Positions 1 through 25,025 of a stretch of DNA of 30,000 bases are shown piece after piece. Below the pieces are notes generated by a model. The model was not told the DNA's origin and made no database searches. It saw only the letters and a list, made by a program, of their open reading frames with translations. Source of the DNA: a virus; IMG/VR virus record IMGVR_UViG_3300042691_021030, positions 1-30,000 of that record; one strand, given 5' to 3'. Position 1 is the first letter of the stretch; each line of letters begins with the position of its first letter. The position numbers were made by a program, and so were the translations under genes.

Positions 1-2
1 GC

Positions 3-2213
3 ATCGCTATCATCTGCGGAGCTGTCTCCTGTAACCTCGAGGTCATCGATGTGGATTGCAAATACGGCATCAACTTCGACCATTACATTGAGAGAATAAT
101 GGAGGCAAACCGCGAGCTGTTGAGCCGCCTATTAATCATCGAGACTAAGTCAAAGGGATATCATATTTATTACCGATGTGAATGCATTGAGGGCAACCAA
201 AAGCTCGCAGAGCGACCAGCAACAGATGATGAGCTCAATGACAATCCAAATGTCAAGCAATGCGTTTTGATTGAGACGCGAGGCGAGGGTGGGTATGTCA
301 TTGCTCCTCCAACTGCCGGGTACAACCCCATTCAAAAAAATGAGATACCTCTCATTACCATTGATGAGCGTGACACTTTGCTCAGTATCGCGCGCAGTTT
401 CAATCAGATAGTTGAGCAAATCAAACAGCCGACCATACCCCACAACAATGACAAGCTCACAGTTTGGGATGACTACAACAAACGCGGTGATGTGGTTGCG
501 CTATTGGAGAAACATGGTTGGCGCAAAGTCAATGAGTATGACAACAAAACATATTTCCTCAGACCGGGCAACACTACCAGTGCATCCTCTGCTGTGCTGT
601 TCAATGACAGCAGAATATTTTATGTACACACAACATCCTCCATATTCGAAACAAAGGGATACAATCCATTTGGAGTGTACACCATGCTTGAGTGCAAAGG
701 TGACTACAAAAAGGCAGCGCGTGAGCTCAGCGACATATACGGTGTAAAGAATGACAATGGATGGTTTTGGACATACACCAAATCGGGAGCTGTGCAAATA
801 TCAAAATACAACCTGCAACAATGGCTATACTCAAACCATTATCAATTGTATTTTCATGACTCAAAATCAGGTGTGTACAGGCTCATCCATGTCGACAACA
901 AAGTAGTGCGCGAGGTGTATGCTGAGGACTTAAAAAAGTACATCAAAACAAAGCTCATCGATGCCGGTCATTATGATGTCATGGAGTCAATCATTAGGCA
1001 CACCAACAGCATTTTCAATGACTCATTCTTTGAGTACATCGACCGCTCAGACATAAAGATACTGCGCGACAAAGCAGACACATGCTATTTCCCATTCAGC
1101 AATGGCATTGTTGTCACCAACAAAGACAAAGTCAACATCATCAAATACGGCAGCATAAATGAGGCAATATGGAGCACACAGATCATTGACTTTGACATTT
1201 ACATCAATGACCAGTTTGAGCCTAAAATGTCAAAGTATTACGAGTTTATTGAGAAAATCAACGGTGATGATCCTGAGCGCATTGAGTATGCAATGACACT
1301 CATCGGCTATGTCCTACACTCTTACAAAGATCCATCGAAGCCATTTGCACCAATACTCGCAGAGGAGACGGATGATGAGGCAAAGGGAGGAGGTACCGGT
1401 AAAGGGATATTTTTTCAGGCCATCAGCAAGCTCATACCAACAGTGCGCATTGATGGCAAAAACTTTAAGCCGGACAAAACATTTGCATTTCAGCGCGTGA
1501 GCTTAGGTACAAAATTGGTTGTCATTGAGGACTGCCCTAAAAATGTGGACTTTGAGAAGTACTACCCAACCATTACTGAGGGTATGACCATTGAGAAGAA
1601 AAACAAAGATGAGCTGTTTTTGACCTATTCAGAGAGTCCAAAGATTGCATTTACAACAAACTACTCCATCGCTAACAACGCAGAGCACGCAAAGCGCAGG
1701 CAGAAGGTATTGGAGTTTGCTCCATTTTTCTCGAGTCAGCGCACACCATTGGATCACTTTGGGCACAAATTATTTGATGACTGGGACAATGATGAGTGGC
1801 AAAAGTTTTACAATCTGATGTTTTACTGCGTTAAATTGTATCTTGACAAAGGTGTCAAGTCAATGCACAACAGCGACAAATTGAGGAAAAAACAAATCAA
1901 ACAGCAATTTGGGGAGGACTTTTTGGAGTATTTGACCGACCTCATAGAGCATCAGGGAGAGTGGAAATTCATGACTGATGAGTGGAAAAATTATCTGCAA
2001 AGGTATGAGCTGGACAAAAAAGAGTACTCCCTCAAACGATTTAAAAAGGGTTTAGAAATCGGTAGTAAGATTATGGAAATCAATTTTATCGATCGTAAAA
2101 ATCAGCAAAACAATGGTTTGAAGGAGTTTAAGATAGGGAAAAATATTGATACGTGGAAGCCAATGGAGACGGAAAGTATCGATTTGAGTGATGGAAATAC
2201 CGATTTATTTTAA
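3..2213 (+). CDS. Primase-polymerase / superfamily 3-type helicase, 5' partial
   Basis: Replication protein predicted to make primers and unwind phage DNA. The frame is open to the left edge, so the true start lies outside the window. The GTG at 51 is unlikely as start because it falls inside a VIDVD segment (45-59) that looks like the catalytic hhhDhD motif of archaeo-eukaryotic primases. The TRGEGGYVIAPP segment (about 273-312) also fits the primase-polymerase domain. A helicase domain follows: a Walker A-like GGGTGKG (about 1387-1407), a Walker B-like VVIEDC (about 1519-1536), and a sensor-like KIAFTTN (about 1639-1659), as in D5-type phage helicases. The C-terminal tail is charged. It is followed by a 121-base AT-rich gap with repeated AGTATCRAT sites. 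The domain reading is strong; coupling to a specific polymerase is not visible here. Confidence 0.9.
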   Translation: MAIICGAVSCNLEVIDVDCKYGINFDHYIERIMEANRELLSRLLIIETKSKGYHIYYRCECIEGNQKLAERPATDDELNDNPNVKQCVLIETRGEGGYVIAPPTAGYNPIQKNEIPLITIDERDTLLSIARSFNQIVEQIKQPTIPHNNDKLTVWDDYNKRGDVVALLEKHGWRKVNEYDNKTYFLRPGNTTSASSAVLFNDSRIFYVHTTSSIFETKGYNPFGVYTMLECKGDYKKAARELSDIYGVKNDNGWFWTYTKSGAVQISKYNLQQWLYSNHYQLYFHDSKSGVYRLIHVDNKVVREVYAEDLKKYIKTKLIDAGHYDVMESIIRHTNSIFNDSFFEYIDRSDIKILRDKADTCYFPFSNGIVVTNKDKVNIIKYGSINEAIWSTQIIDFDIYINDQFEPKMSKYYEFIEKINGDDPERIEYAMTLIGYVLHSYKDPSKPFAPILAEETDDEAKGGGTGKGIFFQAISKLIPTVRIDGKNFKPDKTFAFQRVSLGTKLVVIEDCPKNVDFEKYYPTITEGMTIEKKNKDELFLTYSESPKIAFTTNYSIANNAEHAKRRQKVLEFAPFFSSQRTPLDHFGHKLFDDWDNDEWQKFYNLMFYCVKLYLDKGVKSMHNSDKLRKKQIKQQFGEDFLEYLTDLIEHQGEWKFMTDEWKNYLQRYELDKKEYSLKRFKKGLEIGSKIMEINFIDRKNQQNNGLKEFKIGKNIDTWKPMETESIDLSDGNTDLF

Positions 2214-2277
2214 ATCAATCCGTTGTAATCAATTGATACTCAATGCGAAAATTAAATTTAGTATCAATAGTATCGAT
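2175..2277. promoter_or_regulatory. Cluster of AGTATCRAT sites, possible operator
   Basis: Four copies of a 9-base motif lie at the end of the primase gene and in the gap after it: AGTATCGAT at 2175-2183, its inverted form ATTGATACT at 2232-2240, AGTATCAAT at 2260-2268 and AGTATCGAT at 2269-2277. The second and third form a perfect 9-base inverted repeat with a 19-base spacer; the third and fourth are direct tandem copies. Such an arrangement could bind a regulator controlling the genes from 2335, or form an RNA stem. No good Bacteroidota promoter was recognised in the gap. The pattern is seen directly; the regulatory role is inference. Confidence 0.4.
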
Positions 2278-2334
2278 TATTTATAATTATTTAACTAAAG
2301 TAATAAAATATAATAAATAATAAAGAGTAAGAAA

Positions 2335-2697
2335 ATGGCAAAAATCGATAAAATCAATCCGAAGTGGTTTGGAAAGTCAATTTACCGATACCATTTGAGG
2401 AGCTCAGAGAGTAAATACAGTTATCGGTTTGTTTCAACCGAAATAACACCAATTCAAGCCATTGAGATCATGAGGGATCACATCCCTCCTAATGGAGCTT
2501 ATCGGTTATTTTGTAACGGTGAACAGATTTACAACTACTCAGCACGCAAAAATCCCGGTGTGAAAAATAAAAAAACTGGGGACACTTGGAAAAATATTGT
2601 TGAATTTTGTATTGACAACGGATATACACGAAAAAAAGCACAGGAAGTCATAAGACGCAAAACAGATATTTATGAGTACATATATTTTGACAATTGA
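2335..2697 (+). CDS. Hypothetical phage protein, 120 aa
   Basis: I do not recognise this family. The protein is small, basic and rich in Tyr, Lys and Arg, with no membrane segment or signal peptide. Residues 80-112, including TWKNIVEFCIDNGYTRKKAQEVIRRKT, look like a short helical unit that could be a helix-turn-helix, hinting at nucleic-acid binding. The ATG at 2335 follows an AT-rich leader with AAAGAGTAAGAAA just upstream and is the first start after the primase. Its end overlaps a possible 41-residue gene in another frame. Its position between the primase and a sigma-like protein suggests a replication or regulatory accessory. That role is inferred from position only. Confidence 0.65.
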   Translation: MAKIDKINPKWFGKSIYRYHLRSSESKYSYRFVSTEITPIQAIEIMRDHIPPNGAYRLFCNGEQIYNYSARKNPGVKNKKTGDTWKNIVEFCIDNGYTRKKAQEVIRRKTDIYEYIYFDN

Positions 2698-2797
2698 GGT
2701 GGCAGTGGATGCCGATGACATTTTACAAGCAATTAAAATGGGAGAAAAAATATCTGAGGAAAACAATGGAAATCTCAAAAATATTGTTGAAATTTGA
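2672..2797 (+). CDS. Small hypothetical protein, 41 aa
   Basis: This short frame starts at an ATG inside the end of the preceding gene (26-base overlap) and stops just before the ATG of the sigma-like gene. The product begins MSTYILTIEVAVDADDILQA and continues as an acidic amphipathic helix. That pattern, a short beta strand followed by alternating acidic and hydrophobic residues, is common in tiny phage proteins of unknown function. Tight packing between neighbours supports it, but the length is too short to be certain. An internal GTG at 2705 is an alternative start. Confidence 0.45.
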   Translation: MSTYILTIEVAVDADDILQAIKMGEKISEENNGNLKNIVEI

Positions 2798-2802
2798 TAT
2801 TA

Positions 2803-3291
2803 ATGCGAAACGATATCATCAGTGAGCTGTACCAGTCCAAAGAGGTCAACGAGTTGATATCGAAAATCCGTCCGGTAGAATTACAGGATGATTTAAAACA
2901 ATATGCATTTGCTGTACTACTGGAGAAGCCTGAGGCATTTATCATCGATTTACACAATAAAAAACAGCTGAGGTATTTTCTTGTAAAAATTATCACGAAT
3001 AGTGTTTTTACAAACCGCTCAGGTTTTATGACACTTCATAAACTTACAAAGGATTTAGATGTTGATTGCATTAGTGATGTTGAGAATGAGTCAAGTAATT
3101 ATCATGATTTACTTGACAGCTGCAATACTGAGATTAAAAATGTGTACTGGTACAATGCTGAGCTTTTGAATTTATATGCTCAACATGGATCATATCGCAA
3201 AGTGAGTGAGGTCACAAACATACCAGTCAAGTCAGTGTACAATGCAATCAAAAAGGCAAAAGAAACAATAAAGCAAAAAATATGGAAATAA
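2803..3291 (+). CDS. Sigma factor-like helix-turn-helix protein
   Basis: Predicted DNA-binding protein of 162 residues resembling phage proteins related to sigma-70 factors. The C-terminal 40 residues contain YAQHGSYRKVSEVTNIPVKS followed by VYNAIKKAKETIKQ, a helix-turn-helix like sigma region 4. The N-terminal two thirds are helical and acidic and could be a reduced region 2. The ATG at 2803 is preferred over an in-frame TTG at 2794, which would overlap the small upstream gene. It overlaps the next gene by 10 bases. It could steer host RNA polymerase to late promoters or act in packaging regulation. The helix-turn-helix is clear; the sigma assignment is a family-level guess. Confidence 0.65.
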   Translation: MRNDIISELYQSKEVNELISKIRPVELQDDLKQYAFAVLLEKPEAFIIDLHNKKQLRYFLVKIITNSVFTNRSGFMTLHKLTKDLDVDCISDVENESSNYHDLLDSCNTEIKNVYWYNAELLNLYAQHGSYRKVSEVTNIPVKSVYNAIKKAKETIKQKIWK

Positions 3292-3506
3292 TCTACGCGG
3301 TATGCTTAGCATACATTTGGGTAAATGTTTTACTCGTACCCTATCGGTTTAAACAAGTGTTTAATTTCAAACCAATGAATTGTACAACGTGCTTGAGCGG
3401 TTGGCTCACACTTGCATTTGTTGGGTTTAAATGGGAGGTACTTCCAATGATGGCGGTTGCAATGGTACTCCAAATATTATTGGATGGTTTAATTCGCAAA
3501 CTATGA
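3282..3506 (+). CDS. Small membrane protein with CxxC motif
   Basis: A 74-residue protein with an N-terminal hydrophobic segment (about residues 4-20), a middle CTTC motif followed by a second hydrophobic stretch (about 37-48), and a third (about 53-70). This predicts an inner-membrane protein with two or three spans. The CxxC could bind metal or be redox active, but nothing decides this. It overlaps the gene before by 10 bases and the glycosyltransferase after by an ATGA junction. That coupling suggests coexpression, and perhaps cooperation in a membrane-linked glycosylation step. Function is not recognised. Confidence 0.7.
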   Translation: MEIIYAVCLAYIWVNVLLVPYRFKQVFNFKPMNCTTCLSGWLTLAFVGFKWEVLPMMAVAMVLQILLDGLIRKL

Positions 3507-4531
3507 TGAGGATAATCGGTTTAGTCAATCAGAAGTCAGCACCTGATTATCACAGGGTGTATACTCCTCTAATGAATATGGAGGCTGATGTATTCATTAC
3601 CAACAAACTAACTGAGGAGCATTTGGAGAAGGGATGTGATGTGTTGGTTGTCAACCGGTTTGCGTTTTACAATCCTGCGGATGATATTTATGCATGGCGT
3701 GACAAATATGGTTTCAAGCTCGTTATTGATATTGATGACTTCTGGATATTGGAGGCAGGGCATATACTCGCACCATACTGGGAGGTTAACAATGTTTCCA
3801 ATGTTATCATTGACAACATGATCAGGGCGGACATTGTCACGTGTACTCATTGGAGGTTGGCAGAGCACATATCAGTGTACAACAAAAATGTGTACATACT
3901 ACCCAACGCTATACCAATGGGATTTGAGCAGTACAATATTGACCGCATATACTCAGACAAAGTGAGGTTGATGTGGCAGGGATCAATCACGCACATTGAT
4001 GATGTTGCAATACTTCGCAATCCAATGAAGCGCATATCAGGTGACAGTCACCTGTCCAAAAAAATACAAACTGTGTTTGGAGGGTATGTGCCAAAGATGG
4101 ATGACTGCGATCACATGCTGTCATCATTTACCTGTGGGTTAAAATTGGATACAAAGATATTCAATGCGATGTCCTCATTTGATTATTTCCAAATTTACAA
4201 TCATGCCGATGTTTGCATGATTCCATTGGTTGAGAATAGGTTTAACAAACACAAATCAAACCTCAAAATATTGGAGGCAGCTGCGGCAGGTTTGCCGGTC
4301 ATTGTCAGCCATGTTGATCCTTATCTCGATTTTCCTGAGCATTGTGTGTACTATGTCAAAAAGCAATCGGACTGGTACAATGGGGTGAAGTACATGACAT
4401 CCATCGACATGACACGCGACATATTTGCAAAAAATTTATCTGAGTATTGCGAGTCACAATACAACTTTAAAAAGATTAATAACCAAAGAGCTGATATTTA
4501 TGCAGGAAAACAACAGGGCATTTTTGGATAG
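3503..4531 (+). CDS. GT-B fold glycosyltransferase (GT1/GT4-like)
   Basis: A 342-residue protein expected to move a sugar from a nucleotide-sugar donor. The C-terminal half has the GT4-type donor-site signature KSNLKILEAAAAGLPVIVS (about 4255-4311), with the conserved glutamate before the small-residue run, and an earlier VYILPNAIP segment (about 3892-3918) typical of the domain linker. The N-terminal half contains LVIDIDDFW and a TCTHW segment consistent with the acceptor domain. The start at 3503 is chosen because ATG overlaps the upstream TGA as ATGA; an upstream in-frame start would run through the previous gene. The acceptor could be a virion protein, phage DNA or a host surface glycan; sequence alone does not decide. 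Confidence 0.85.
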   Translation: MMRIIGLVNQKSAPDYHRVYTPLMNMEADVFITNKLTEEHLEKGCDVLVVNRFAFYNPADDIYAWRDKYGFKLVIDIDDFWILEAGHILAPYWEVNNVSNVIIDNMIRADIVTCTHWRLAEHISVYNKNVYILPNAIPMGFEQYNIDRIYSDKVRLMWQGSITHIDDVAILRNPMKRISGDSHLSKKIQTVFGGYVPKMDDCDHMLSSFTCGLKLDTKIFNAMSSFDYFQIYNHADVCMIPLVENRFNKHKSNLKILEAAAAGLPVIVSHVDPYLDFPEHCVYYVKKQSDWYNGVKYMTSIDMTRDIFAKNLSEYCESQYNFKKINNQRADIYAGKQQGIFG

Positions 4532-4808
4532 TCAAAGAGGCCACTACATCACATTGACACAGGCAGGCTTTATTCAAAACCTGACCAATGACATCAGGCA
4601 ACAATTTGTGAACGTGATCCGGGAGGAGTTCAATCCGGGTTACCTGTGCTGCTTGCATTGTCAGGCGGATGTGGCTGAGATGATCAGGTTTGCCTATACA
4701 CAATACGATTTAAAACTGGAGCAATATGGAAAGGAGCAAAACACAGCTGAAAGTTCTGATGATAGCGGACGAGCTGGAAAAACTGCAAAAAGAAAACGTA
4801 AAATATAA
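4500..4808 (+). CDS. Hypothetical protein with CLHC motif, 102 aa
   Basis: Begins at the ATG at 4500, overlapping the glycosyltransferase end by 32 bases, and overlaps the small terminase start by 83 bases. The central part contains YLCCLHCQADVAEMIRFAYT. A paired-cysteine helix of this form appears in small proteins next to terminase genes in Bacteroidota phages, from memory of the families. The C-terminal 30 residues are polar and end in a basic KTAKRKRKI tail, which might bind DNA or simply be frame-constrained by the overlap. Function is unknown. An in-frame start at 4425 would overlap even further and is not favoured. Confidence 0.65.
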   Translation: MQENNRAFLDSQRGHYITLTQAGFIQNLTNDIRQQFVNVIREEFNPGYLCCLHCQADVAEMIRFAYTQYDLKLEQYGKEQNTAESSDDSGRAGKTAKRKRKI

Positions 4809-5196
4809 AGATAGCGACATTTGGCAAAAAATGGCGTTAGCTCCTCGAACGTATCAACGCCTAAAATCAAAAGCCCTCGCAGAGCTACAGAAACGCGCCA
4901 AAATTCGCGAAACGGCGTTAAATAGTACTATCACCCTCGAAACCATAGAGAAGGCGAAAAACGGGCTAAAAACAACCTTAGAATTGGAGGAGCAATTATG
5001 CCGCATTGCGATGGGTGATATTGATGTGACAGAAACAACGTTGACACCGGATGGAATGATTGACCATCAGCGCAAACCATCCCCATCCGAAATGACGGCA
5101 GCCATCAGGGAGCTGCTCAAACTTAGGGGTGCTTATGCGCCTGAGAAAATCGACCATCAAATCAGCCAATATCAAGTGACATTAAATCTAAAATAA
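4726..5196 (+). CDS. Terminase small subunit-like protein
   Basis: A 156-residue, mostly helical and charged protein expected to recognise phage DNA and recruit the large terminase. The N-terminal part (about residues 10-60) can form a helix-turn-helix region including DSDIWQKMALAPRTYQRLK. The second half carries a beta segment (DVTETTLTPDGMIDHQRKPS) and a helix, EMTAAIRELLKLRGAYAPEK, a pattern typical of small terminases in Bacteroidota phages. It lies in the packaging module but is separated from the large subunit by two sugar/methyl-transfer genes. It abuts the next gene directly (TAA then ATG). Family assignment is by pattern rather than a diagnostic motif. Confidence 0.7.
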   Translation: MERSKTQLKVLMIADELEKLQKENVKYKDSDIWQKMALAPRTYQRLKSKALAELQKRAKIRETALNSTITLETIEKAKNGLKTTLELEEQLCRIAMGDIDVTETTLTPDGMIDHQRKPSPSEMTAAIRELLKLRGAYAPEKIDHQISQYQVTLNLK

Positions 5197-5877
5197 ATGA
5201 ATAAGTTTATCCATTCAGGCGCAACCGGTGACCTCATCTTCTCACTGCCAACCATCAGGACGATGGGAGGAGGAGATTTGTACATCACCAATTTTGACAA
5301 GCAACGCTCAGAGTCAATCAAAAAGCTGATTGAGTTACAACCGTACATCCACAATGTTGTGGTCACTGATCATCCGCCTGAGGGCATTGACCTAAATTTG
5401 TTCAGGCAGCATGCAGGGCACCATTCCAATTTGGTTGAGGCGCATTTCAAAGGTCAGGGCATCCCCATTGATGAGACATGGAGGGATGGATGGCTGACAC
5501 TACCTGAGCCAAACTTTCAATTGTTTCCCGGCAAAAAGTACAGCGTCATCAACCGAACAACTAATTATGCCGATCCAAACTTCGACTGGGCAAAGGAGGT
5601 TGAGTATTTGTTGACCATATCAGATAAGGTGTATTTTTTGGGGTATGTAAAGGAGTGGCAGTTGTTCAATAACACATTCGGCACAAATGTCGAGTTTGCC
5701 GATTTGGATTTCAAGCATGGCGCATACCTGATTAAAAATGCGGTTATGTTTACAGGGTGTTATTCTGCATGGTCAACCATTGCGATGGGGTTGGGGTTGA
5801 CATACCGACTCGAGCAAGCTCCCGGACACACATGCTCATCATTATTAATGGAAAGAGAAACAATTGTAAATGTATAG
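5197..5877 (+). CDS. GT9-like glycosyltransferase (heptosyltransferase-like)
   Basis: A 226-residue protein resembling a compact GT9 enzyme. It opens with a GATGDLIFSLPTIRTMGGGD segment (residues 8-27) like the N-terminal Gly-Asp loop of ADP-heptose:LPS heptosyltransferases. It ends with a MFTGCYSAWSTIAMGLGLTY region (about 184-203) equivalent to the GT9 donor-binding segment that precedes a small-residue helix. It is shorter than cellular heptosyltransferases (usually over 300 residues), so one domain is reduced. The ATG directly follows the stop of the small terminase, and the end overlaps the methyltransferase by 8 bases. It probably acts with the neighbouring GT-B enzyme and methyltransferase; substrate unknown. 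Confidence 0.7.
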   Translation: MNKFIHSGATGDLIFSLPTIRTMGGGDLYITNFDKQRSESIKKLIELQPYIHNVVVTDHPPEGIDLNLFRQHAGHHSNLVEAHFKGQGIPIDETWRDGWLTLPEPNFQLFPGKKYSVINRTTNYADPNFDWAKEVEYLLTISDKVYFLGYVKEWQLFNNTFGTNVEFADLDFKHGAYLIKNAVMFTGCYSAWSTIAMGLGLTYRLEQAPGHTCSSLLMERETIVNV

Positions 5878-6385
5878 TCAAGCGAAACAGGATGATTTTG
5901 TGCTTCACATGATGGGGGGCAAAATCGGTGATTATTTGGAAATAGGTGCATCGCATCCTATTAATATCAATAACACATATCTATTGGAGCAACACGGATG
6001 GACAGGGTTGAGCATTGATATTGATGATTGTTGCAAAGATATTTGGGCAGAGAAACGAAAGAATCCTTTAATTATTGCAGACGCATTAACATTTAATTAC
6101 CCACATAAAGAGCGCATTGATTATTTACAGATTGATGTCGAGCCATCAGAAACAAATTTCAAAGCATTGCTGCAAGTTCTAAAAAGCAAAACAAGATTTT
6201 CAATAATTACGTATGAAACAGATGCGTATCTTGATGACAGCTTTGTGCAGCCCAGCCGACAAATACTGCAAAGTCATGGGTACAAATTGATATATCCCGA
6301 TGTGCTTTGTGAGTTTGGCGCATTTGAGGACTGGTACATTGATACATCAGTTATTGATATAGATTTATTCAAAACATTCAATTGA
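5870..6385 (+). CDS. FkbM-like SAM-dependent methyltransferase
   Basis: A 171-residue protein with the hallmarks of an FkbM-type methyltransferase. It starts YSQAKQDDFVL, then has GDYLEIGASHPININNTYLL (residues 20-39), matching the SAM-binding motif I. WTGLSIDID (44-52) holds the acidic residue expected to bind the SAM ribose. IDYLQIDVEP (about 83-92) matches the later acidic strand. FkbM enzymes often O-methylate sugars, which fits placement directly after two glycosyltransferases: a methyl cap on a transferred glycan is a reasonable guess. The Glu codons include more GAA than in the neighbouring large terminase. The stop overlaps the TTG start of that gene. Confidence 0.8.
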   Translation: MYSQAKQDDFVLHMMGGKIGDYLEIGASHPININNTYLLEQHGWTGLSIDIDDCCKDIWAEKRKNPLIIADALTFNYPHKERIDYLQIDVEPSETNFKALLQVLKSKTRFSIITYETDAYLDDSFVQPSRQILQSHGYKLIYPDVLCEFGAFEDWYIDTSVIDIDLFKTFN

Positions 6386-7572
6386 AAAAAATAGCATATA
6401 CCCGGCCATTCATTTACAACTACCAGCGCGCCATCTTAGACAGCGATGCGAGGTTTACCGTCACTGAGGCATCCACAAAGGTTGGCAAAACAGCCAGCCA
6501 TATCATTTGGCTGTTTGAGCAGGCATTGACACTTAAAGAGAATCAATCAGTATGGTGGGTGGCACCAGTGTACAGTCAGGCAGAGATAGCATTCAACAGG
6601 ATGAGGGCACAGGTCAGCGACAAAGGATTTTTCAAAGCCAATGAGACAAAGCTCAAATTGACGCTACCAACAGGATCACACATCCAGTTTAAGTCAGCAG
6701 AGAAGCCGGACAACCTGTATGGCGATGATGTGTATGCTGCGGTGTTTGATGAGTTTACCAGAGCACGTGAGGAGTCATGGTATGCATTGAGGTCAACGCT
6801 CACAGCTACCAATGGCAAATGCAAGTTTATCGGTAACGTAAAGGGCAAAAAGAATTGGGGGTATAGGATGGCACAAAAGGCAAAGTCAGGTGAGCCAAAC
6901 TTTGCACACTTTAAAATAACGGCATACGATGCAGCAGCTGAGGGGCTGTTGACAATGGATGAGATTGAGCAGGCCAAACGTGATTTGCCTGAGGCGGTGT
7001 TTAAGGAGCTGTATTTGGCGGAGGCGGCTGAGGATGGCAGCAATCCATTCGGGTTGGCATACATCAACCAATGCACATATCCCATCAGCACACTGCCGGC
7101 TGTTTGCTTTGGTGTGGATTTGGCAAAGTCGAGTGACTGGACTGTAATCATCGGACTCGACAAAAATGGAGCGGTGTGTCATGTGGATCGCTTCCAAAAG
7201 GATTGGCGGCAGACAACGCGCACCATCCTCGATTTGCCGATGGCTCAGATAGCCATTGACTCCACAGGTGTTGGTGATCCGATAGCTGAGGACATTGCCC
7301 GGATACGTGATGTGGAGATGTTCAAATTTACGAGCAACAGCAAACAACAAATCATGGAGGGGTTGGCATTAGCAATACAACAGCGGCTCATCCAATTCCC
7401 TGAGGGACACATCAAAGATGAGCTCGAGCAGTTTGAGTTTGAGTTCACGCGTACTGGGGTGAAGTACTCTGCGCCTGCCGGGTTGCATGATGACTGTGTT
7501 TGCTCGCTGGCATTGGCATGGCATAAGTACAGGAACGGCGCGAGGGGATCAGGGCATTACGCAATAATATAG
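6382..7572 (+). CDS. terL: Terminase large subunit
   Basis: The packaging motor: an ATPase that pumps DNA into the prohead and a nuclease that cuts the concatemer. In 396 residues the ATPase shows Walker A ASTKVGKT (30-37) and Walker B YAAVFDEF (118-125, D123/E124). The RNase H-like nuclease has acidic residues in CFGVDLAKSSDW (D246), AIDSTGVGDP (D293) and GLHDDC (D370/D371). Length is near the shorter end for the family. The start is TTG at 6382, overlapping the previous TGA; there is no in-frame ATG before the Walker A motif, and an in-frame TGA lies at 6355, so the unusual start is well supported. Every Glu codon I checked in this gene is GAG. Confidence 0.95.
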   Translation: MKKIAYTRPFIYNYQRAILDSDARFTVTEASTKVGKTASHIIWLFEQALTLKENQSVWWVAPVYSQAEIAFNRMRAQVSDKGFFKANETKLKLTLPTGSHIQFKSAEKPDNLYGDDVYAAVFDEFTRAREESWYALRSTLTATNGKCKFIGNVKGKKNWGYRMAQKAKSGEPNFAHFKITAYDAAAEGLLTMDEIEQAKRDLPEAVFKELYLAEAAEDGSNPFGLAYINQCTYPISTLPAVCFGVDLAKSSDWTVIIGLDKNGAVCHVDRFQKDWRQTTRTILDLPMAQIAIDSTGVGDPIAEDIARIRDVEMFKFTSNSKQQIMEGLALAIQQRLIQFPEGHIKDELEQFEFEFTRTGVKYSAPAGLHDDCVCSLALAWHKYRNGARGSGHYAII

Positions 7573-7588
7573 AAACAAATCAGTAAAA

Positions 7589-8332
7589 ATGATATTTACA
7601 TTTAGGATACCGAAGTGGTCAAAGATTAGCGTTGAGATGTATCAGTACATCAACGATATCAATGACAGCGAGATGGATGAGACCGACAAGCTATTGATGA
7701 CATTGACAGCGTTGACCGGTAAGACAGAGAGGCAACTGGATAAACTTGGGATGAGCAAGCTGGGGATGTTGAGGTTTACGATGTTGGTTAACCGGTTAAA
7801 AAAGAGGTTAAAGGTATTGGCAGTAAAGGGCAAACCAGTACAAAAGCTCTCGGGGTTTAAATTCATTGGTGATGTTGAGCGGTTGACATTTGGTAAGTAC
7901 ATTGAAATACAGCATTTTTTTAAGCTCGGGCAAGTTGAGAGTTTGCATTTTGTTGCGGCATCAATGTGTGAGAATGAGGATATAAGTCACCAACAAAGGG
8001 CGGCTCGTATTTTACAGCTCCCATTTTTGCCTGTGTTTTGGACTGTGGTCAATATGCTCGAGCAATTGACGGCATTCAATAACGAGTACAAAGGATTGCT
8101 GGGCATTGATGAGGAGGTTGATGAGGAGTTGAAGCCTGAGCAAAACAAATTCAATGAGCGGTATGGATGGATTTACTCAGCAAAAAAAGTGGCTGATTTT
8201 GAGGGGGTAAAATTGGAGGAGGCGTTTGATTTACCAGTTAGGCAGGCATTCAATGATTTGGCATATTTAAAAGAGTTAAGCAATTACGAATACGAGTTAA
8301 ACAAAAAACAACTTGGCGGCATCATCAATTAG
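7589..8332 (+). CDS. Putative tail assembly chaperone-like protein
   Basis: A 247-residue, soluble, helix-rich protein. The N-terminal half has the pattern of a short beta-rich start followed by MTLTALTGKTERQLDKLGMS, then FKFIGDVERLTFGKYIEIQHF (a residue run typical of proteins that handle tail components in Bacteroidota phages). The C-terminal third, including RYGWIYSAKKVADFEGVKLEEAF, is conserved in style with proteins found near tail genes. Chaperone assignment is a guess from position and appearance. The end overlaps the next gene by 20 bases at an A-rich tract. It may alternatively be a head-tail joining protein of unknown type. Confidence 0.45.
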   Translation: MIFTFRIPKWSKISVEMYQYINDINDSEMDETDKLLMTLTALTGKTERQLDKLGMSKLGMLRFTMLVNRLKKRLKVLAVKGKPVQKLSGFKFIGDVERLTFGKYIEIQHFFKLGQVESLHFVAASMCENEDISHQQRAARILQLPFLPVFWTVVNMLEQLTAFNNEYKGLLGIDEEVDEELKPEQNKFNERYGWIYSAKKVADFEGVKLEEAFDLPVRQAFNDLAYLKELSNYEYELNKKQLGGIIN

Positions 8333-12655: not shown

Positions 12656-13117
12656 ATGTCGATAAAAATATCTGAGCTTGATCCTGTGGTTACCATAAGC
12701 GGTGGCGAGTTTATCCCGGTAGTGCAGGATGGAGAAACAAAAAAAGCAAAGGTTGATGATACACTTGGATACAAAGTTTATCGAGCTGTTGTCAGTTATA
12801 ATGCAACAACTGATGTAATAACAACAACAGTTGAGCAGGATAATTTTTTGGATATTAATATCACAAAGCCATTGAGTGGTGTATTTTATATCAATTCAGA
12901 TGATGACCAATACACAGAAAACAAAACACTTGTATTTATTAGTCAAAACAATAACAAAAACAATATCATACCATACAATTTTGTGTTTTATACAGCATTT
13001 AGGCAAAATGCAGGGCGCATCATTTTAACCGCTCGCGGTATTAATTTAGGGGAGCAAGAGGTTGATTTTGTCGATTTAGTAACTGATTTATCAATCGAAA
13101 TACGAGTTTATCCATAA
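12656..13117 (+). CDS. Tail-associated protein, tandem paralogue 1
   Basis: A 153-residue protein beginning KISELDPVVTISGGEFIPVV and continuing TKKAKVDDTLGYKVYRA, a module typical of the attachment segment of phage fibre or baseplate proteins. It then becomes beta-rich and ends LSIEIRVYP. The next gene encodes a clear relative with the same opening, a shared VFISQ/NN loop and the same ending (LSIEVRVYP), so this is a tandem duplication. A run of A precedes the ATG. Small size without a fibre shaft suggests a baseplate plug, adaptor or decoration protein. Function by position only. Confidence 0.65.
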   Translation: MSIKISELDPVVTISGGEFIPVVQDGETKKAKVDDTLGYKVYRAVVSYNATTDVITTTVEQDNFLDINITKPLSGVFYINSDDDQYTENKTLVFISQNNNKNNIIPYNFVFYTAFRQNAGRIILTARGINLGEQEVDFVDLVTDLSIEIRVYP

Positions 13118-13128
13118 AATAAAAAAGA

Positions 13129-13587
13129 ATGCCAAAGATTAGTGAATTGACAAGCGTGTCAAGTTTAACAGGAACGGAGGAGCTGCCGGTTGTTCAAAGT
13201 GCATCAACCAAAAAAGCAACAGTAAATGATTTGCTGGGGTACAAAGTTTATGTCGCATTGGTTGCATACGATACACTTGGTGATCAGATGGTTGTCCAAA
13301 CATTTAGGGATGACTTTGGTGATATTACCGTCACACGAGTAAGCGCAGGGCAATATAATATTGCGAGCTCAGGAGGGTTATTTGAGACAAATAAAACACA
13401 GGTATTTATCAGTCAGGACAACAATACTGGTGGTGGTGGTGATGGTAATTTTGTTTATAATCAAGCATTTAGGGAAAACAGCAGCAATATAAAGATATTA
13501 ATTAATGATGTTGATGTTGTCAATGGAGGGAATACAGCTGGTGATTTTATGAGCGGTTTATCAATTGAGGTTAGGGTTTACCCATAA
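13129..13587 (+). CDS. Tail-associated protein, tandem paralogue 2
   Basis: A 152-residue relative of the preceding protein. Shared features are the opening KISELTSV/GTEELPVVQ, TKKATVNDLLGYKVYVALVAY, KTQVFISQDNN in the middle and LSIEVRVYP at the end. A Gly-rich GGGGDGN loop replaces the Asn-rich loop of the first copy. Sequence divergence across most of the middle suggests an old duplication, or independent acquisition and specialisation, rather than a recent copy. It sits 11 bases after the first, with an A-rich leader, immediately before the tape measure. A role as partner subunits of a hetero-oligomer in the tail is a possibility. Confidence 0.65.
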   Translation: MPKISELTSVSSLTGTEELPVVQSASTKKATVNDLLGYKVYVALVAYDTLGDQMVVQTFRDDFGDITVTRVSAGQYNIASSGGLFETNKTQVFISQDNNTGGGGDGNFVYNQAFRENSSNIKILINDVDVVNGGNTAGDFMSGLSIEVRVYP

Positions 13588-19198: not shown

Positions 19199-19576
19199 AT
19201 GATACAATTGGTTAAAGGTGTCAATAAAAATGTAGTACTAACATTGTCGGAGTTTACAACTTTGACAAATGCGTATTATCTTTTTATATTTCAGCACGTT
19301 ACAACAAAACAAACAATCAGCTTTGTGCTACCAATGAGCGCGGATTTAAGCACGCACCAATGGAGATACAATGAGTTTTTGATTGCAGCATCCCATTTCA
19401 ACAGCGCACCAGTCGGCAAATATCAATATCACATATACGAACAGGCAAGCAGCTCAAATACAAATCCATCAGGGTTGACATTGGTTGAGCAGGGCAAAAT
19501 GGATTTAAACAATGCAGCAGCTTTTGAGTTTACTCAATACGAAACTGCAACAAATTACACTCAATATGGAGGATAG
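19199..19576 (+). CDS. Virion-associated hypothetical protein, 125 aa
   Basis: A 125-residue beta-rich protein. It begins MIQLVKGVNKNVVLTLSEFT, carries HQWRYNEFLIAASHF in the middle, then KYQYHIYEQASSSNTNPSGL and VEQGKMDL near the end. From memory this set of motifs marks a small structural family in Bacteroidota phages and prophages, next to head or tail genes, whose precise role is not assigned. The Ig-like strand pattern could make it a decoration or connector protein. Its end overlaps the portal start by 11 bases, which couples the two translationally. Confidence 0.65.
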   Translation: MIQLVKGVNKNVVLTLSEFTTLTNAYYLFIFQHVTTKQTISFVLPMSADLSTHQWRYNEFLIAASHFNSAPVGKYQYHIYEQASSSNTNPSGLTLVEQGKMDLNNAAAFEFTQYETATNYTQYGG

Positions 19577-21803
19577 GCAAATTATTGTACTCAAATTTGA
19601 GGATAGCAAAATCCCCGAATTTAAGGAGGTAAGAGGTAAAGAGTGGGTATACTATGGGGATGACAATTTATACCCGGAATACCTCACAAAGTTATTTAAC
19701 AAATCAGCAAAGCACAACGCCATCATCAATGGAAAGGTGACATATATTGTCGGCGAGGGTTTGTACACAAAGGTTGATGATGCAGAGGCAGAGAAAATGA
19801 TGTTCAGAGCAAACAGCGCAGGCGAGAGCTTAAATGACATCATGAAAAAATGTGCTTTGGATGTTGAGATATTTGGAGGCTTTTATTTAAACATCATCCC
19901 AAACAAACTGGGTGGCATTGCTGACATTTACCATTTGGATTTTGAGCGCGTGAGAAGCAATGAGGATGGCTCGATGTTTTTTTACAAAAATGATTGGAAG
20001 CTCGGCAACAGGGACAAAGCTATGGAGTTTAAGGCATTCAATCCAAAGGACATGACCAGCTCCTCCATTTTCTCATATAAAGAATACAGACCGGGACTCC
20101 GCACATATTGTCTGCCAAATTACATTGGTGCAATGAATTACATCGAGGCAGACATGGAGGTATCAAAGCATACATTGACCAATGCAAAGGCTGGTTTCTC
20201 GGCAACTAAGTTAATAAATTTTTACAACGGAGAGCCTGCACCAGAAATGCAACGCGACATTCAAAAGAGAATGGAGCGCAAATTTACCGGTGCTGATGGC
20301 TCAAAGATAATTATTGCGTTCAACAATGATCCTGCAAAAGCACCAACAGTACAGGACTTAGGTCAGAGCGATTTGACAAAAGAGGATTTCCAGCAAGTGG
20401 ATGCGCTCATCACTCAAAATCTAATGGCAGGGCATCAGATCACAACACCTGCATTGTTTGGTATTAGTGAGCCGGGCAAATTAGGTCAGCGCAACGAGCT
20501 CAAAATGGCCTATGAGATATTCCAAAACACTTACATCAATCACAAACAAAGGTCATTAGAGAAGGTATTTAATTATTTGGCAAAGTACAAAGGTGTAAAA
20601 ACTGAGCTGTATATCAGGCCATGTGATCCGGTTGGTATTGAGGTGACTGAGAGCATGATCATTCAGACAGCTCCAAAATCATGGATACTCGACAAGATTG
20701 GTGTTGACACAGAGAAATACAATGACTCAAATATTGCAGGTGTGCCTATAAAAAAACCAACAATTGAGGATACGGATGCATCTCAAAAGGTTATAGATAG
20801 TATCAATTCATTGTCTCCATTGGTAGCAAATAAAGTACTCGAGACAATGACAGCTGATGAGATACGTGCTCTCGCGAGCTTATTGCCAAATCCGGCAGTA
20901 AAGACACCAACAGAGCAGGCAAATGTACCTGAGCAAATGGAGTCAGAGTCATCGACAAATGTCAATAGTGTGTTAACCAATTTAACAGGCAGACAACACC
21001 AACAAATCAGCCGCATTGTGCGTCAATATACACAAGGTAAATTGTCGCTGTCACAGGCATCCATCATGCTCAAAAACGGGTTTGGGTTTACTGATGATGA
21101 TGTGACAGCTTATTTAGGATTGAACGATCAAAAGTTTAGTAAGGAGTACACTGAGGAGGAGGTTGCGCATCTATTAAATGAGATGGGTGAGCAGCGCGAG
21201 ATGTTCCATGTCATCCACAGCAGGGAGAACAAATTTACCAGTGATGCGGACATGGTTGCATTTGAGGAGGCATTTTTTAAAAAGGAACAGTTTGCCATCA
21301 CTGAGAAGGTGACTGATTTGGAGGCAAATGTTTTGAAGCTCATCCAAAAAAATCCAAACATCACAACGGCAGACATTGCCACAGCAACTGGTGTTGAGAA
21401 GGCATATGCTGAGGAGGTAATATCAAAACTTACTGAGCGTGGTTTCATCACATCAACTGAGGTTAGTGGTGTTGGCGGTACATTGGTGACTCGCAAACTT
21501 ACTGATACATTGCCATCACTTGTCGGTAAGATTAGCAAAAAGCTACCTGAGATTGTCATCCGTTACAGCTACGAGGTAAAGCCGGGTGTTGGTGCGCCTA
21601 TTATTCCCGGCACACGCCCATTTTGCAGAGAGATGCTGCGCAAAGACAGGCTGTTTTCGAGGCCACAAATTGAGGCATTGAGCGTTGTGTTGGGGTATTC
21701 TTTATGGGATCGCAAAGGAGGATTTTGGAATAAGGGCAAAGGCAAAGGCATATCAGCCGACTGCCGCCACATGTGGAAAACAAATATACTTGTAAAAAAA
21801 TGA
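19566..21803 (+). CDS. Portal protein with C-terminal winged-helix and CRH-motif domains
   Basis: Forms the DNA gate at the capsid vertex; 745 residues. The N-terminal half has portal-type features: GKEWVYYGDDNLYPEYLTKL, a hydrophobic helix region, GFYLNIIPNK, and DLTKEDFQQVDALITQNLMA leading to ATPALFGISEPG-like stem residues. It is longer than typical portals (about 450-550 residues). The extra C-terminal part contains a winged-helix-like LEANVLKLIQKNPNITTADI region, and ends with RPFCREMLRKDRLFSRPQIE and DCRHMWKTN, which resembles domains seen in head morphogenesis (Mu gpF-like) proteins. The start at 19566 overlaps the previous gene. It may thus be a fused portal and minor head protein. 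Confidence 0.8.
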   Translation: MEDRQIIVLKFEDSKIPEFKEVRGKEWVYYGDDNLYPEYLTKLFNKSAKHNAIINGKVTYIVGEGLYTKVDDAEAEKMMFRANSAGESLNDIMKKCALDVEIFGGFYLNIIPNKLGGIADIYHLDFERVRSNEDGSMFFYKNDWKLGNRDKAMEFKAFNPKDMTSSSIFSYKEYRPGLRTYCLPNYIGAMNYIEADMEVSKHTLTNAKAGFSATKLINFYNGEPAPEMQRDIQKRMERKFTGADGSKIIIAFNNDPAKAPTVQDLGQSDLTKEDFQQVDALITQNLMAGHQITTPALFGISEPGKLGQRNELKMAYEIFQNTYINHKQRSLEKVFNYLAKYKGVKTELYIRPCDPVGIEVTESMIIQTAPKSWILDKIGVDTEKYNDSNIAGVPIKKPTIEDTDASQKVIDSINSLSPLVANKVLETMTADEIRALASLLPNPAVKTPTEQANVPEQMESESSTNVNSVLTNLTGRQHQQISRIVRQYTQGKLSLSQASIMLKNGFGFTDDDVTAYLGLNDQKFSKEYTEEEVAHLLNEMGEQREMFHVIHSRENKFTSDADMVAFEEAFFKKEQFAITEKVTDLEANVLKLIQKNPNITTADIATATGVEKAYAEEVISKLTERGFITSTEVSGVGGTLVTRKLTDTLPSLVGKISKKLPEIVIRYSYEVKPGVGAPIIPGTRPFCREMLRKDRLFSRPQIEALSVVLGYSLWDRKGGFWNKGKGKGISADCRHMWKTNILVKK

Positions 21804-22508: not shown

Positions 22509-23187
22509 ACAAATTAACCATTTCTTTTTTGGTGAGGTTGTTGACTGGTTGGCGAATGGGGACATAAGATACCCGGCATGTTGTGTTGAGGTAAATCCTT
22601 CGACAATCAGTAAGGATGACCATCAGACAATTTACAGCTTTGAGATATGGTTTTTGGATTTGGTGAATGTGGATATGGAGGCAAATGAAAATGAGCTCGA
22701 GGTTATGAGTGATCTCACCAGTATTGCGGAGGACTACATTGCCATGCTTAATTTCAGTCAGTATCAAGATATTTGGACAATTGGTACAACATATCAGTTG
22801 GAGTATTTCAGAGAGAAGTTTGAGGATTTGACAATCGCTGTGAGGTTTACATGCAGCATTGGTGTTGACAATACAACAGACAGATGTCAGGTGCCTGCAA
22901 CAGGGGTGACATTTGAGAGCGGTACTGAGTATCCTCCACAAATACAAATACAGGAAAATACTGTGTACACTTACACGTACACATGTGACGGCTCAGAACT
23001 TTATGCAATCAGTGCGGCTGATGTTGTGAATAAGGAGGTTTTATTGGTTTTTGTTGGTGATAAAAGATTGAGCGAGGCGGCACACAGTCCGGGAGTTAAT
23101 GAGTATGAGTATGATGCTGCGCTCGGTGAGTTCACTTTTTGTGTTGAATTACAAGCTGGTCAAGTAATACAAATTTTATATAGATGA
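22456..23187 (+). CDS. Putative tail completion / neck protein, 243 aa
   Basis: A 243-residue protein with an N-terminal helix MTLNQVVQKLEQLALSHKQI followed by FFFGEVVDWLANGDIRYPAC, a beta-strand region YSFEIWFLDLVNVD, and a helix AEDYIAMLNFSQYQ. This alternation fits a tail terminator or completion protein family that closes the tail at the neck. A distinct C-terminal domain (about 145-243) contains beta strands with TYTYTCDGSEL and ends in VIQILYR, probably an added domain. The start lies within the small upstream gene, and the end overlaps the fibre gene as ATGA. The function is inferred from order and fold-like pattern. Confidence 0.6.
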   Translation: MTLNQVVQKLEQLALSHKQINHFFFGEVVDWLANGDIRYPACCVEVNPSTISKDDHQTIYSFEIWFLDLVNVDMEANENELEVMSDLTSIAEDYIAMLNFSQYQDIWTIGTTYQLEYFREKFEDLTIAVRFTCSIGVDNTTDRCQVPATGVTFESGTEYPPQIQIQENTVYTYTYTCDGSELYAISAADVVNKEVLLVFVGDKRLSEAAHSPGVNEYEYDAALGEFTFCVELQAGQVIQILYR

Positions 23188-25025
23188 GATTGATATTTTT
23201 ATTTTTATTGTTGCCATTTGTTGGCAAGTCACAAAATGACACTACCAAATACTACAAGTCATTTGACTATGGATGGAATTATCAAAGATTAAAAGCTCGC
23301 GCAGCAATGGTGTTGCCATCGGACACAATCGCAAACAAGCTCGGTATTGTGACAATCGACACATCCGTATTTGTGGGCAATGGTGTGAGATGGGCAAAGG
23401 TTGGCGGCGCAGGCGGAGGAGGTATATCAGCTGACTCCTTAACCTATTACACAAAGTTTCGCAGTGATACGAGCCGCACAAATATATACAATGCAATAGG
23501 TAATAAATTAAATACCTCAGACACAACAAATGCATTCCTGATTAGTGTCTCACAACCAAATGACAGCTCGTTGACATTTGTCAAAGGCACAACCAGTACA
23601 AACTACATCATCAGGGCATCAACAGCAGGATCAGCAACGCGGTTGATTACGAGGGTTTACAATAGCACAGGCAGCACAATTTCGAGGGGAAGCGTTGTGT
23701 ACATCAGCGGAAGACACTCAAGCAATTTGCCGACAATAGAGCTTGCACAGGGCAACAATGAGGCGAATAGTTACAAGACATTTGCTGTGGTTGAGAGTGA
23801 CATCCCAACGAGCAACAGCGGTGTTGTGGTGCAAGCCGGCAATGTGGGCAATCTTAATTTGCCGACATCATCATACACTGATGGGGATGTTGTGTACCTA
23901 AGTCCAACAGTGCCCGGAGGCATTACAATAGTCAAGCCATTGGCACCATTTCACATTTGTAAGATAGGCAGCATCACACGTGCCCATCCTACCTTCGGAA
24001 GTTTGGAGGTAAAAATCGAGAACGGATGGCAGATGGATGAGCTGAGTGACGTGTCAATACCTTTGTATCCAAATGACAGCGTATTGTTGCAGTTCAGCCG
24101 GGTTGACTCACTATGGCATGATGTGAGCGTGACAAATGCCATTGGCAACAAATACCTCAAACCATCAGACAGCACAATATATCAGCCTAAATTTCGCAGC
24201 GACACAGCACGTACAAATACGTACAATGCCATAAGTACAAAGGTAAATTCGTCAGACAGCACACTTTATCAAACGAAATTTCGGAGTGACACAGCACGTA
24301 CAAATACGTACAGCGCAATTGCTGGCAAATTTACTTTGCCATCACTTACAAGTGGCTCAGTTTTATTTTCTGATGGTACAACCATCGCGCAGAAAAATGC
24401 AAACTTTTTTTGGGATAATACAAATAACCGGTTAGGACTGGGGACAACATCACCAGCAAATGCATTTGATGTTGTGAGAGGCACAGCTGGCACAATGGGC
24501 AGGGGTACATTTGAGAGTGGATCATTCTCATTTAATGGGGATGCAAAAGTCGGAGTGTACACATCATCAGCAACGGCAACTGATGGAGCAGGCATTGCAT
24601 TCGCTCAAACTAATTTGCAGGCAAATAGTCGGTATCCGGGTTTTGAGATGCAGTATGTTTATTCCAGTACAGTTGCGAATAATGCATGGAGAGTTAATTA
24701 TACCGAAAGGTCAAGTGCTGGTGCTGTACAAAATTATACTGCAAATGTATTAGCTGCCTATGCTAATGGTACTGTTATGATAAATCCAACAGCAAGTGGA
24801 GTGACTGCATCCGCAAAATTATTGGTAGGCAGAGCGAGCTCAACATTTACTTTTGATGTAAATGGTAGTGCAAGAGCAAACCAATTTTATTTGTCAGCTT
24901 TAAACACAGCACCTGCATCAGCATCAGCAACCGGTACAACTGGTGAGATACGGATTGACGCAAATTATATTTATATATGCACCGCGACAAACACATGGAA
25001 GCGCGTTGCAATAGCAACATGGTAA
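23184..25025 (+). CDS. Tail fibre-like protein with N-terminal signal peptide
   Basis: A 613-residue protein. The first 16 residues, MRLIFLFLLLPFVGKS, form a classical signal peptide with a hydrophobic core and small residues before a possible cleavage site at SQ-ND. A host-style secreted start on a virion protein is unusual. The rest is Ser/Thr/Asn-rich and fibre-like, with repeats around FRSDTARTNTYNAI, then NRLGLGTTSPANAFDVV, a segment typical of fibres and host surface proteins of Bacteroidota, and a C-terminal beta domain. No S74 chaperone domain was identified. It probably contacts the host surface, but an exported, non-virion protein is also possible. Confidence 0.7.
   Translation: MRLIFLFLLLPFVGKSQNDTTKYYKSFDYGWNYQRLKARAAMVLPSDTIANKLGIVTIDTSVFVGNGVRWAKVGGAGGGGISADSLTYYTKFRSDTSRTNIYNAIGNKLNTSDTTNAFLISVSQPNDSSLTFVKGTTSTNYIIRASTAGSATRLITRVYNSTGSTISRGSVVYISGRHSSNLPTIELAQGNNEANSYKTFAVVESDIPTSNSGVVVQAGNVGNLNLPTSSYTDGDVVYLSPTVPGGITIVKPLAPFHICKIGSITRAHPTFGSLEVKIENGWQMDELSDVSIPLYPNDSVLLQFSRVDSLWHDVSVTNAIGNKYLKPSDSTIYQPKFRSDTARTNTYNAISTKVNSSDSTLYQTKFRSDTARTNTYSAIAGKFTLPSLTSGSVLFSDGTTIAQKNANFFWDNTNNRLGLGTTSPANAFDVVRGTAGTMGRGTFESGSFSFNGDAKVGVYTSSATATDGAGIAFAQTNLQANSRYPGFEMQYVYSSTVANNAWRVNYTERSSAGAVQNYTANVLAAYANGTVMINPTASGVTASAKLLVGRASSTFTFDVNGSARANQFYLSALNTAPASASATGTTGEIRIDANYIYICTATNTWKRVAIATW
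24165..24338 (+). repeat. Two tandem 87-base repeats in the fibre gene
   Basis: Copies start near 24165 and 24252. Each encodes 29 residues of the form SDSTxYQxKFRSDTARTNTY, and a 25-base core (24201-24225 and 24288-24312) is identical. A diverged third copy occurs near 23443-23530 (FRSDTSRTNIYNAIGNK). The units likely build a rod segment, and near-identity of two copies indicates a recent duplication that may let the fibre change length. Confidence 0.8.

Follow-up and report, generated by a model that had tools for sequence, protein, structure and literature searches.

Glycosyltransferases are widespread in phages and their targets are rarely known; known cases include action on virions, on hosts and on DNA. 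Mycobacteriophages are an established case in which such enzymes glycosylate the virion, with Che8 gp110, Corndog gp38 and Myrna as examples (PMC12363180, citing Freeman et al. 2023). A glycosyltransferase also lies in the structural module of Cellulophaga phage phi18:1 (PMC11946311), and a study of cryoconite phages (Bellas et al. 2020, PMC7468147) reports variable islands to which terminase genes and a small number of glycosyltransferases belong. Here we describe an island of sugar-transfer and methyl-transfer genes that ends at the large terminase gene (terL) of the 30,000-base virus record IMGVR_UViG_3300042691_021030 (positions 1 to 30,000; hereafter the window, with L-numbers denoting contigs or records of relatives). 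It is probably a glycan-decoration cassette with an exchangeable cap.

Compared by description, the mycobacteriophage systems share with this island phage-encoded glycosyltransferases and the phage's own structural proteins as target, a role that is proposed here. They differ in their hosts and phages, and in that glycosylation has been demonstrated there whereas here it is predicted. The window's group, by contrast, has an island at a constant site next to terL, of which the GT9-methyltransferase part can be exchanged. The cryoconite islands likewise consist of flexible genes swapped by recombination, with terminase genes and glycosyltransferases among them. However, their six glycosyltransferases were read as serving superimmunity or anti-restriction, and the accessible part of that study describes no conserved glycan island. 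Escherichia phage phi92 (Justusliebigvirus; gp163-gp166, phrog_7162) encodes homologues of the window's GT-B enzyme (30-32% identity over 96% of the length), and in phi92 and its kin these sit within a run of adjacent predicted glycosyltransferases. Unlike the window, phi92 is a large E. coli phage whose cluster lies near a DNA polymerase gene, and the run carries no annotated GT9-like or FkbM-like gene. No description of a fixed GT-B gene with an exchangeable GT9-methyltransferase island turned up in the literature searched. The first-pass annotation, made from the window's letters, had called the locus a candidate for an undescribed system; this is too strong, since glycosyltransferases of phages that act on virions, on hosts and on DNA have been described before; it is the fixed-site, exchangeable arrangement that the literature searched did not show.

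Layout and conservation of the island

The left part of the window reads, in order, a primase/helicase-like gene, a sigma-like gene, a small membrane protein (memb), a GT-B glycosyltransferase (GTB), a 102-amino-acid (aa) open reading frame (ORF), a presumed small terminase (terS), a GT9-like and an FkbM-like gene, terL and the structural genes. The features discussed below are:

2800..3291, plus strand: sigma-70-like regulator (TIGR02937 at E 1.1e-4, under the cut-off); the island's left boundary in relatives, its left edge in 85 loci
3282..3506, plus strand: small membrane protein (memb), 74 aa, defined by alignment and present in 85/85 intervals
3503..4531, plus strand: GT-B glycosyltransferase (GTB), the island's conserved core enzyme (PF13692 over the cut-off, phrog_7162)
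4500..4808, plus strand: CxxC protein of 102 aa between GTB and terS, an ORF with homologues in several of L002-L009 and in L102-L104
4726..5196, plus strand: presumed small terminase (terS), assigned by position; 74% identical in L002
5197..5877, plus strand: predicted miniature GT9-fold glycosyltransferase of 226 aa, which opens the exchanged pair (AlphaFold2 (AF2) model and fold matches)
5870..6385, plus strand: short FkbM-type S-adenosylmethionine (SAM) methyltransferase of 171 aa, which closes the exchanged pair (PF05050 in 8/20 members, class-I fold)
5191..6387, plus strand: recombination unit, homologous to L082/L084 and absent from L002 by whole-contig blastn
6382..7572, plus strand: large terminase (terL), the island's right boundary (PF03237 and PF17289 over the cut-off)
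23184..25025, plus strand: mosaic tail-fibre-like protein from contig comparison, a possible cassette partner kept as a lead only (phrog_17312 tail protein at the C-terminus)

The four genes that had been annotated around terS and before terL (memb, GT-B, GT9-like, FkbM-like) are present, and their coupled starts are borne out by the junctions. Adjoining genes of the locus abut or share 4 to 83 bases: memb overlaps the sigma-like gene by 10 nucleotides (nt) and GTB by an ATGA, the GT9-like gene starts immediately after the presumed terS stop (TAAATG), GT9 and FkbM overlap by 8 nt, and FkbM runs into terL through a TTGA. No terminator-like site was found on the coding strand from 2600 to the terL start. 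Profiles and folds uphold the enzyme labels, while the small-terminase label is a positional one, the presumed terS having no family match in the profile libraries. The 102-aa ORF is an additional gene that had gone unmentioned.

Scans of viral contigs gave 80 TerL loci, 29 and then 80 GT9 loci and 31 FkbM loci, partly overlapping. With duplicates removed, 85 non-redundant contigs from uncultivated relatives carry a complete sigma-to-TerL interval, and these intervals hold GTB in 83 cases, GT9 in 73, a class-I methyltransferase in 66 and memb in all 85. GTB and GT9 occur together in 71/85 and all three activities in 57/85, at one site, so that the co-occurrence among phage relatives that the first-pass annotation had proposed looking for does exist. 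Because the arrangement recurs in 85 non-redundant loci, it is not a product of chance. Loci found through TerL only, and hence unselected for sugar genes (n = 40), contain GTB in 39, GT9 in 28 and a methyltransferase in 36. A large subgroup has GTB on the opposite side of the small terminase-like gene; the order varies and the set is kept.

TerL relatives in 84,980 species genomes number five, all of them (5/5) in Bacteroidota metagenome-assembled genomes (MAGs), which makes a Bacteroidota host very likely. A search of the phage collection with the major capsid protein (MCP) gave no match. For the portal there was a match at 27%, to Nonlabens phage P12024S; this phage was considered as an island-free ancestor and set aside as an analogue only, its sigma and terminase not matching the profiles. 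Across the relatives, terL itself forms two classes, one with 65-95% and one with about 40-45% identity to the window's TerL and both with the same neighbour order (L082-L110, L147-L216), and terL may therefore also be exchanged as a module. One Bacteroidetes MAG contig (L141:1-21254), possibly a rearranged prophage, encodes a TerL of 68% identity with tail genes after it; its sigma-like gene is on the other strand, and between that gene and TerL there is no sugar-gene match.

Exchange of the outer cassette

Over positions 1-5200 and 6385-8200 the window's DNA is 79% and 83% identical to L002, with no match in between, where L002 carries a Methyltransf_23-like protein in place of the window's GT9-FkbM pair. 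Conversely, blastn of whole contigs aligns the window to L082/L084 at 71-72% over exactly 5191-6387, although the backbones of these two contigs are distant (TerL 42% and MCP about 40% identical). A backbone like that of L002 joined with gene-precise edges to a segment like that of L082/L084 indicates that the window is a recombinant in which GT9 and FkbM were swapped together. Over 19 sequences, GT9 and FkbM distances correlate with each other at a Mantel r of 0.80, compared with 0.53 (GT9) and 0.44 (FkbM) against TerL.

Among relatives, methyltransferases of at least five Pfam families fill the slot before terL, namely FkbM-type (Methyltransf_21), Methyltransf_23, Methyltransf_11, RMNT_CmcI and Methyltransf_14, and in some slots a GT2 glycosyltransferase replaces GT9. 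RMNT_CmcI is of the rhamnosyl O-methyltransferase type, and Methyltransf_14 of the C-methyltransferase type, which is typical of deoxysugars. That unrelated methyltransferases are swapped in, two of them from sugar-methylating families, is the strongest hint that sugar methylation is what is kept.

The same slot might instead collect unlinked morons, that is, independent host-takeover or metabolic enzymes gathered at a recombination-prone spot beside terL. HNH nucleases, ParB/DNA methyltransferases and small unknown genes do gather there, terminase regions are known as variable islands in Bacteroidota and other phages (PMC7468147), FkbM relatives without GT9 occur in other viruses, and one GT9 has an unrelated genome context (L176). 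We nevertheless find this account quite unlikely against the near constancy of GTB and GT9 (83/85 and 73/85 intervals), the repeated refilling of the slot by methyltransferases, two of the sugar-methylating type, and the joint recombination of GT9 and FkbM.

Among the other annotated genes of the island, those for ParB-like proteins occur most often, between GT9/methyltransferase and TerL (L013, L017, L026, L082 and others); their cluster c5 has 63 members, and the length of many of these proteins leaves room for a DNA methyltransferase part.

Enzymes of the proposed core and cap

GTB scores 28.8 bits against PF13692 (curated cut-off 27), which places it under the GT-B group 1 profile, and matches the phage glycosyltransferase family phrog_7162 at E 1.4e-54. 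Its relatives occur in 144 phage records, including phi92 gp164/gp163. A close-relative scan of viral contigs with GTB alone gave no match, and its relatives in those contigs were identified via synteny. Upstream, memb is marked in the alignment by invariant P31, C34, C37, L38 and W41 (KPxxCxxCLSxW). The first-pass annotation had counted it with the sugar set; since it is present in 85/85 intervals whatever sugar genes accompany it, its membership of a glycan pathway is unsupported. Assignment of memb to DUF1360 was rejected, the resemblance being weak (3/16 members, best E 0.09).

The product of 5197..5877 is clearly predicted to adopt a GT-B fold of the GT9 type. Its AF2 model, built from the 21-member family, has a predicted local distance difference test (pLDDT) score of 88.9, and the top 29 Foldseek matches are all GT9. 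The best folds match over the whole length (3tov, WaaF, WaaC and TibC, Z 14-16), the best of them at a VIA Z of 15.9 and a root-mean-square deviation of 3.2 over 217 aligned residues; TibC is a protein heptosyltransferase. The resemblance extends to an N-terminal GxxGD motif, the Asp of which is the catalytic base in WaaC: Asp12 is invariant in the 21 sequences and is also kept in a second, distant phage GT9-like subfamily at the same site. Unlike these heptosyltransferases of about 320-390 aa, the window's protein has 226 aa, is only 10-16% identical to the solved structures, and has no profile match. GT9 profiles matched 0/21 family members at E <= 0.1, hence the name GT9-fold rather than GT9 member, and the protein found no sequence match in Pfam, PHROGs, PDB sequences or 50,697 phage records. 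The GT9 alignment likewise found no relative in 84,980 species genomes, and a recent host origin is thus not visible.

For the product of 5870..6385, with a pLDDT of 91.8 and class-I methyltransferases as top folds (Z 12-14.5), the model has a class-I SAM methyltransferase fold, in a search that does not separate FkbM from other class-I methyltransferases. With FkbM methyltransferases (PF05050) it shares this fold, a YSQxxQD start and an IDYLQ[IL]D motif, and PF05050 matches 8/20 members of its family at E <= 0.1 (best 8.5e-7). It differs from them in being short (171 aa) and under the Pfam cut-off (19.1 bits against 22.7, E 0.0016), for which reason it is named FkbM-type. More distant FkbM relatives lie within large sugar-nucleotide/glycosyltransferase clusters of other phages (L131, L135, L139, L140). 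The best viral structure match of the GT9-like model in BFVD is A0A6J5NY32, a 467-aa phage protein named 'Methyltransferase FkbM', over about 240 columns or roughly half its length; the structure match suggests a GT9-FkbM fusion. Across all loci, no direct GT9-FkbM fusion ORF was found.

Virion, host surface or DNA as possible acceptor

Inserted between the regulator and the packaging genes, the island would probably be expressed with the late genes. GTB would move a first sugar from a host nucleotide-sugar to the acceptor, the predicted GT9-fold enzyme would add another, perhaps heptose-like, and the FkbM-type enzyme would cap it by methylating that sugar. GTB and memb stay with the backbone while the outer part (GT9 and a methyltransferase, GT2 and a methyltransferase, or a methyltransferase alone) is traded between phages, a trade seen directly in the window and, as slot variation, in its relatives. 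The acceptor would most likely be a virion protein, such that a cassette swap alters the particle's glycan; this target is favoured because of the position in the packaging operon, the soluble enzyme families and the mycobacteriophage precedent. We give action on the virion an even chance. The whole proposal, a two-part glycan-decoration island with a fixed GT-B core and a swappable GT9-methyl cap acting on virion proteins, falls a shade short of that.

Several points weigh against it. Both the acceptor and the enzyme activities are putative. The GT9-like protein is divergent, as its low identity to solved GT9 structures attests. GT9 is absent from 12/85 intervals, and GTB-GT9 intervals without any methyltransferase exist (13 of one type), so the pathway is not obligate. 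Of the proposal that the four genes jointly build and cap a glycan, the part on the enzymes is supported by co-occurrence, joint movement and the sugar-type methyltransferases; the inclusion of memb is unsupported. GT9 enzymes such as WaaC and WaaF act on the lipopolysaccharide (LPS) core at the cytoplasmic face of the membrane, and a host glycan therefore fits the fold equally well. Finally, co-transfer of the cassette with the tail-fibre-like protein is not significant within the group (rank correlation rho 0.46, p 0.18).

That protein is itself a mosaic, its N-terminus being like L007/L008 and its residues ~102-613 like L082/L084 (78-84%). It contains 23% Ser+Thr, the highest among the window proteins tabulated, and FRSDT[AS]R repeats. 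A linkage between fibre and cassette emerges from a Fisher test (7/17 versus 0/15, p 0.008) that is confounded by lineage; given this and the non-significant rank correlation, the linkage is kept as a lead only. Should it hold, one might speak of a 'glycotype' system of Bacteroidota phages, in which an invariant core sugar, put on the virion by the backbone-encoded GT-B, receives a methylated outer sugar set by the GT9/GT2-methyltransferase cassette recombining at the terS/terL junction, and this cassette is swapped along with the fibre that binds the receptor. The coat of the particle and its recognition of hosts would then change in step, a scheme that we regard as rather unlikely. As a separate observation, the fibre-like protein starts with an apparent bacterial signal peptide (MRLIFLFLLLPFVGKSQ), which tail proteins do not usually have.

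The fibre and the folds also bear on a different acceptor. Working from the cytoplasmic side at a late stage of infection, the enzymes could remodel a host surface glycan, for example the LPS core, which would keep progeny from adsorbing again to dying cells or cell debris, or would exclude competitors; the cassette would then have to suit both the host and the receptor-binding fibre, which would explain their common donor lineage. WaaC and WaaF, both LPS heptosyltransferases, are among the closest folds, fibre residues ~102-613 resemble L082/L084 as the cassette does and most of the genome does not, and a small membrane protein is found in every interval. But that membrane protein is there regardless of sugar genes, superinfection exclusion would call for earlier expression than a late packaging operon gives, the link to the fibre comes from one recombinant and is confounded by lineage, and no surface-glycan acyltransferase or polymerase was found among the window proteins scanned. 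The GtrA flippase (PF04138) is found in 0/31 records, with the control positive in 7/14 genomes. On balance we consider a host glycan possible but doubtful. Of the host-surface target named in the first-pass annotation, GtrA-type serotype conversion is thus disfavoured, while an inner-leaflet host glycan stays a candidate.

Phage DNA bases, the third target it had named, fare worse. In this account, hypermodification against restriction would place a sugar on hydroxymethylated bases and methylate it further, with proximity to the terminase reflecting modification before packaging. True DNA-modification genes do enter the island, as in L084, where a TET/JBP gene (PF12851 over the cut-off) stands beside a relative of phrog_842, and ParB-linked DNA methyltransferase-like genes are frequent in the island. 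Yet thymidylate-synthase/hydroxymethylase (PF00303) is found in 0/31 records, window included, although records may be incomplete, and TET/JBP in 2/31 (L084 and L026) and not in the window, against the nearly universal GTB and GT9; the DNA-type genes of L084, moreover, come on top of GTB-GT9-FkbM. A DNA target is accordingly disfavoured and, to our minds, very unlikely.

The two TET/JBP-like dioxygenases lie within the same island, at L084:9755-11388 and L026:4989-6453. The former adjoins the relative of phrog_842 (beta-glucosyl-HMC-glucosyltransferase), the latter a second FkbM methyltransferase. Prochlorococcus phages MED4-117/184 encode a protein with 49% identity to the L026 FkbM, at a place that also touches an annotated queuine tRNA-ribosyltransferase gene.

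Whichever the acceptor, a constant first enzyme with an exchangeable cap in a fixed slot offers a natural experiment, for instance between the window and L002. Should the virion be what is modified, these phages would be varying their surface chemistry through cassette exchange; should it be the host, a comparison of the window/L002 type would expose late host-surface modification.

Elsewhere in the window, the portal-like protein (19557-21800) bears a winged-helix (TrmB/HTH_24/MarR) domain at residues 585-657, after the portal region. Two adjacent, similar tail-region proteins of 153 and 152 aa (12656-13117 and 13129-13587) are poorly conserved in the closest relatives.

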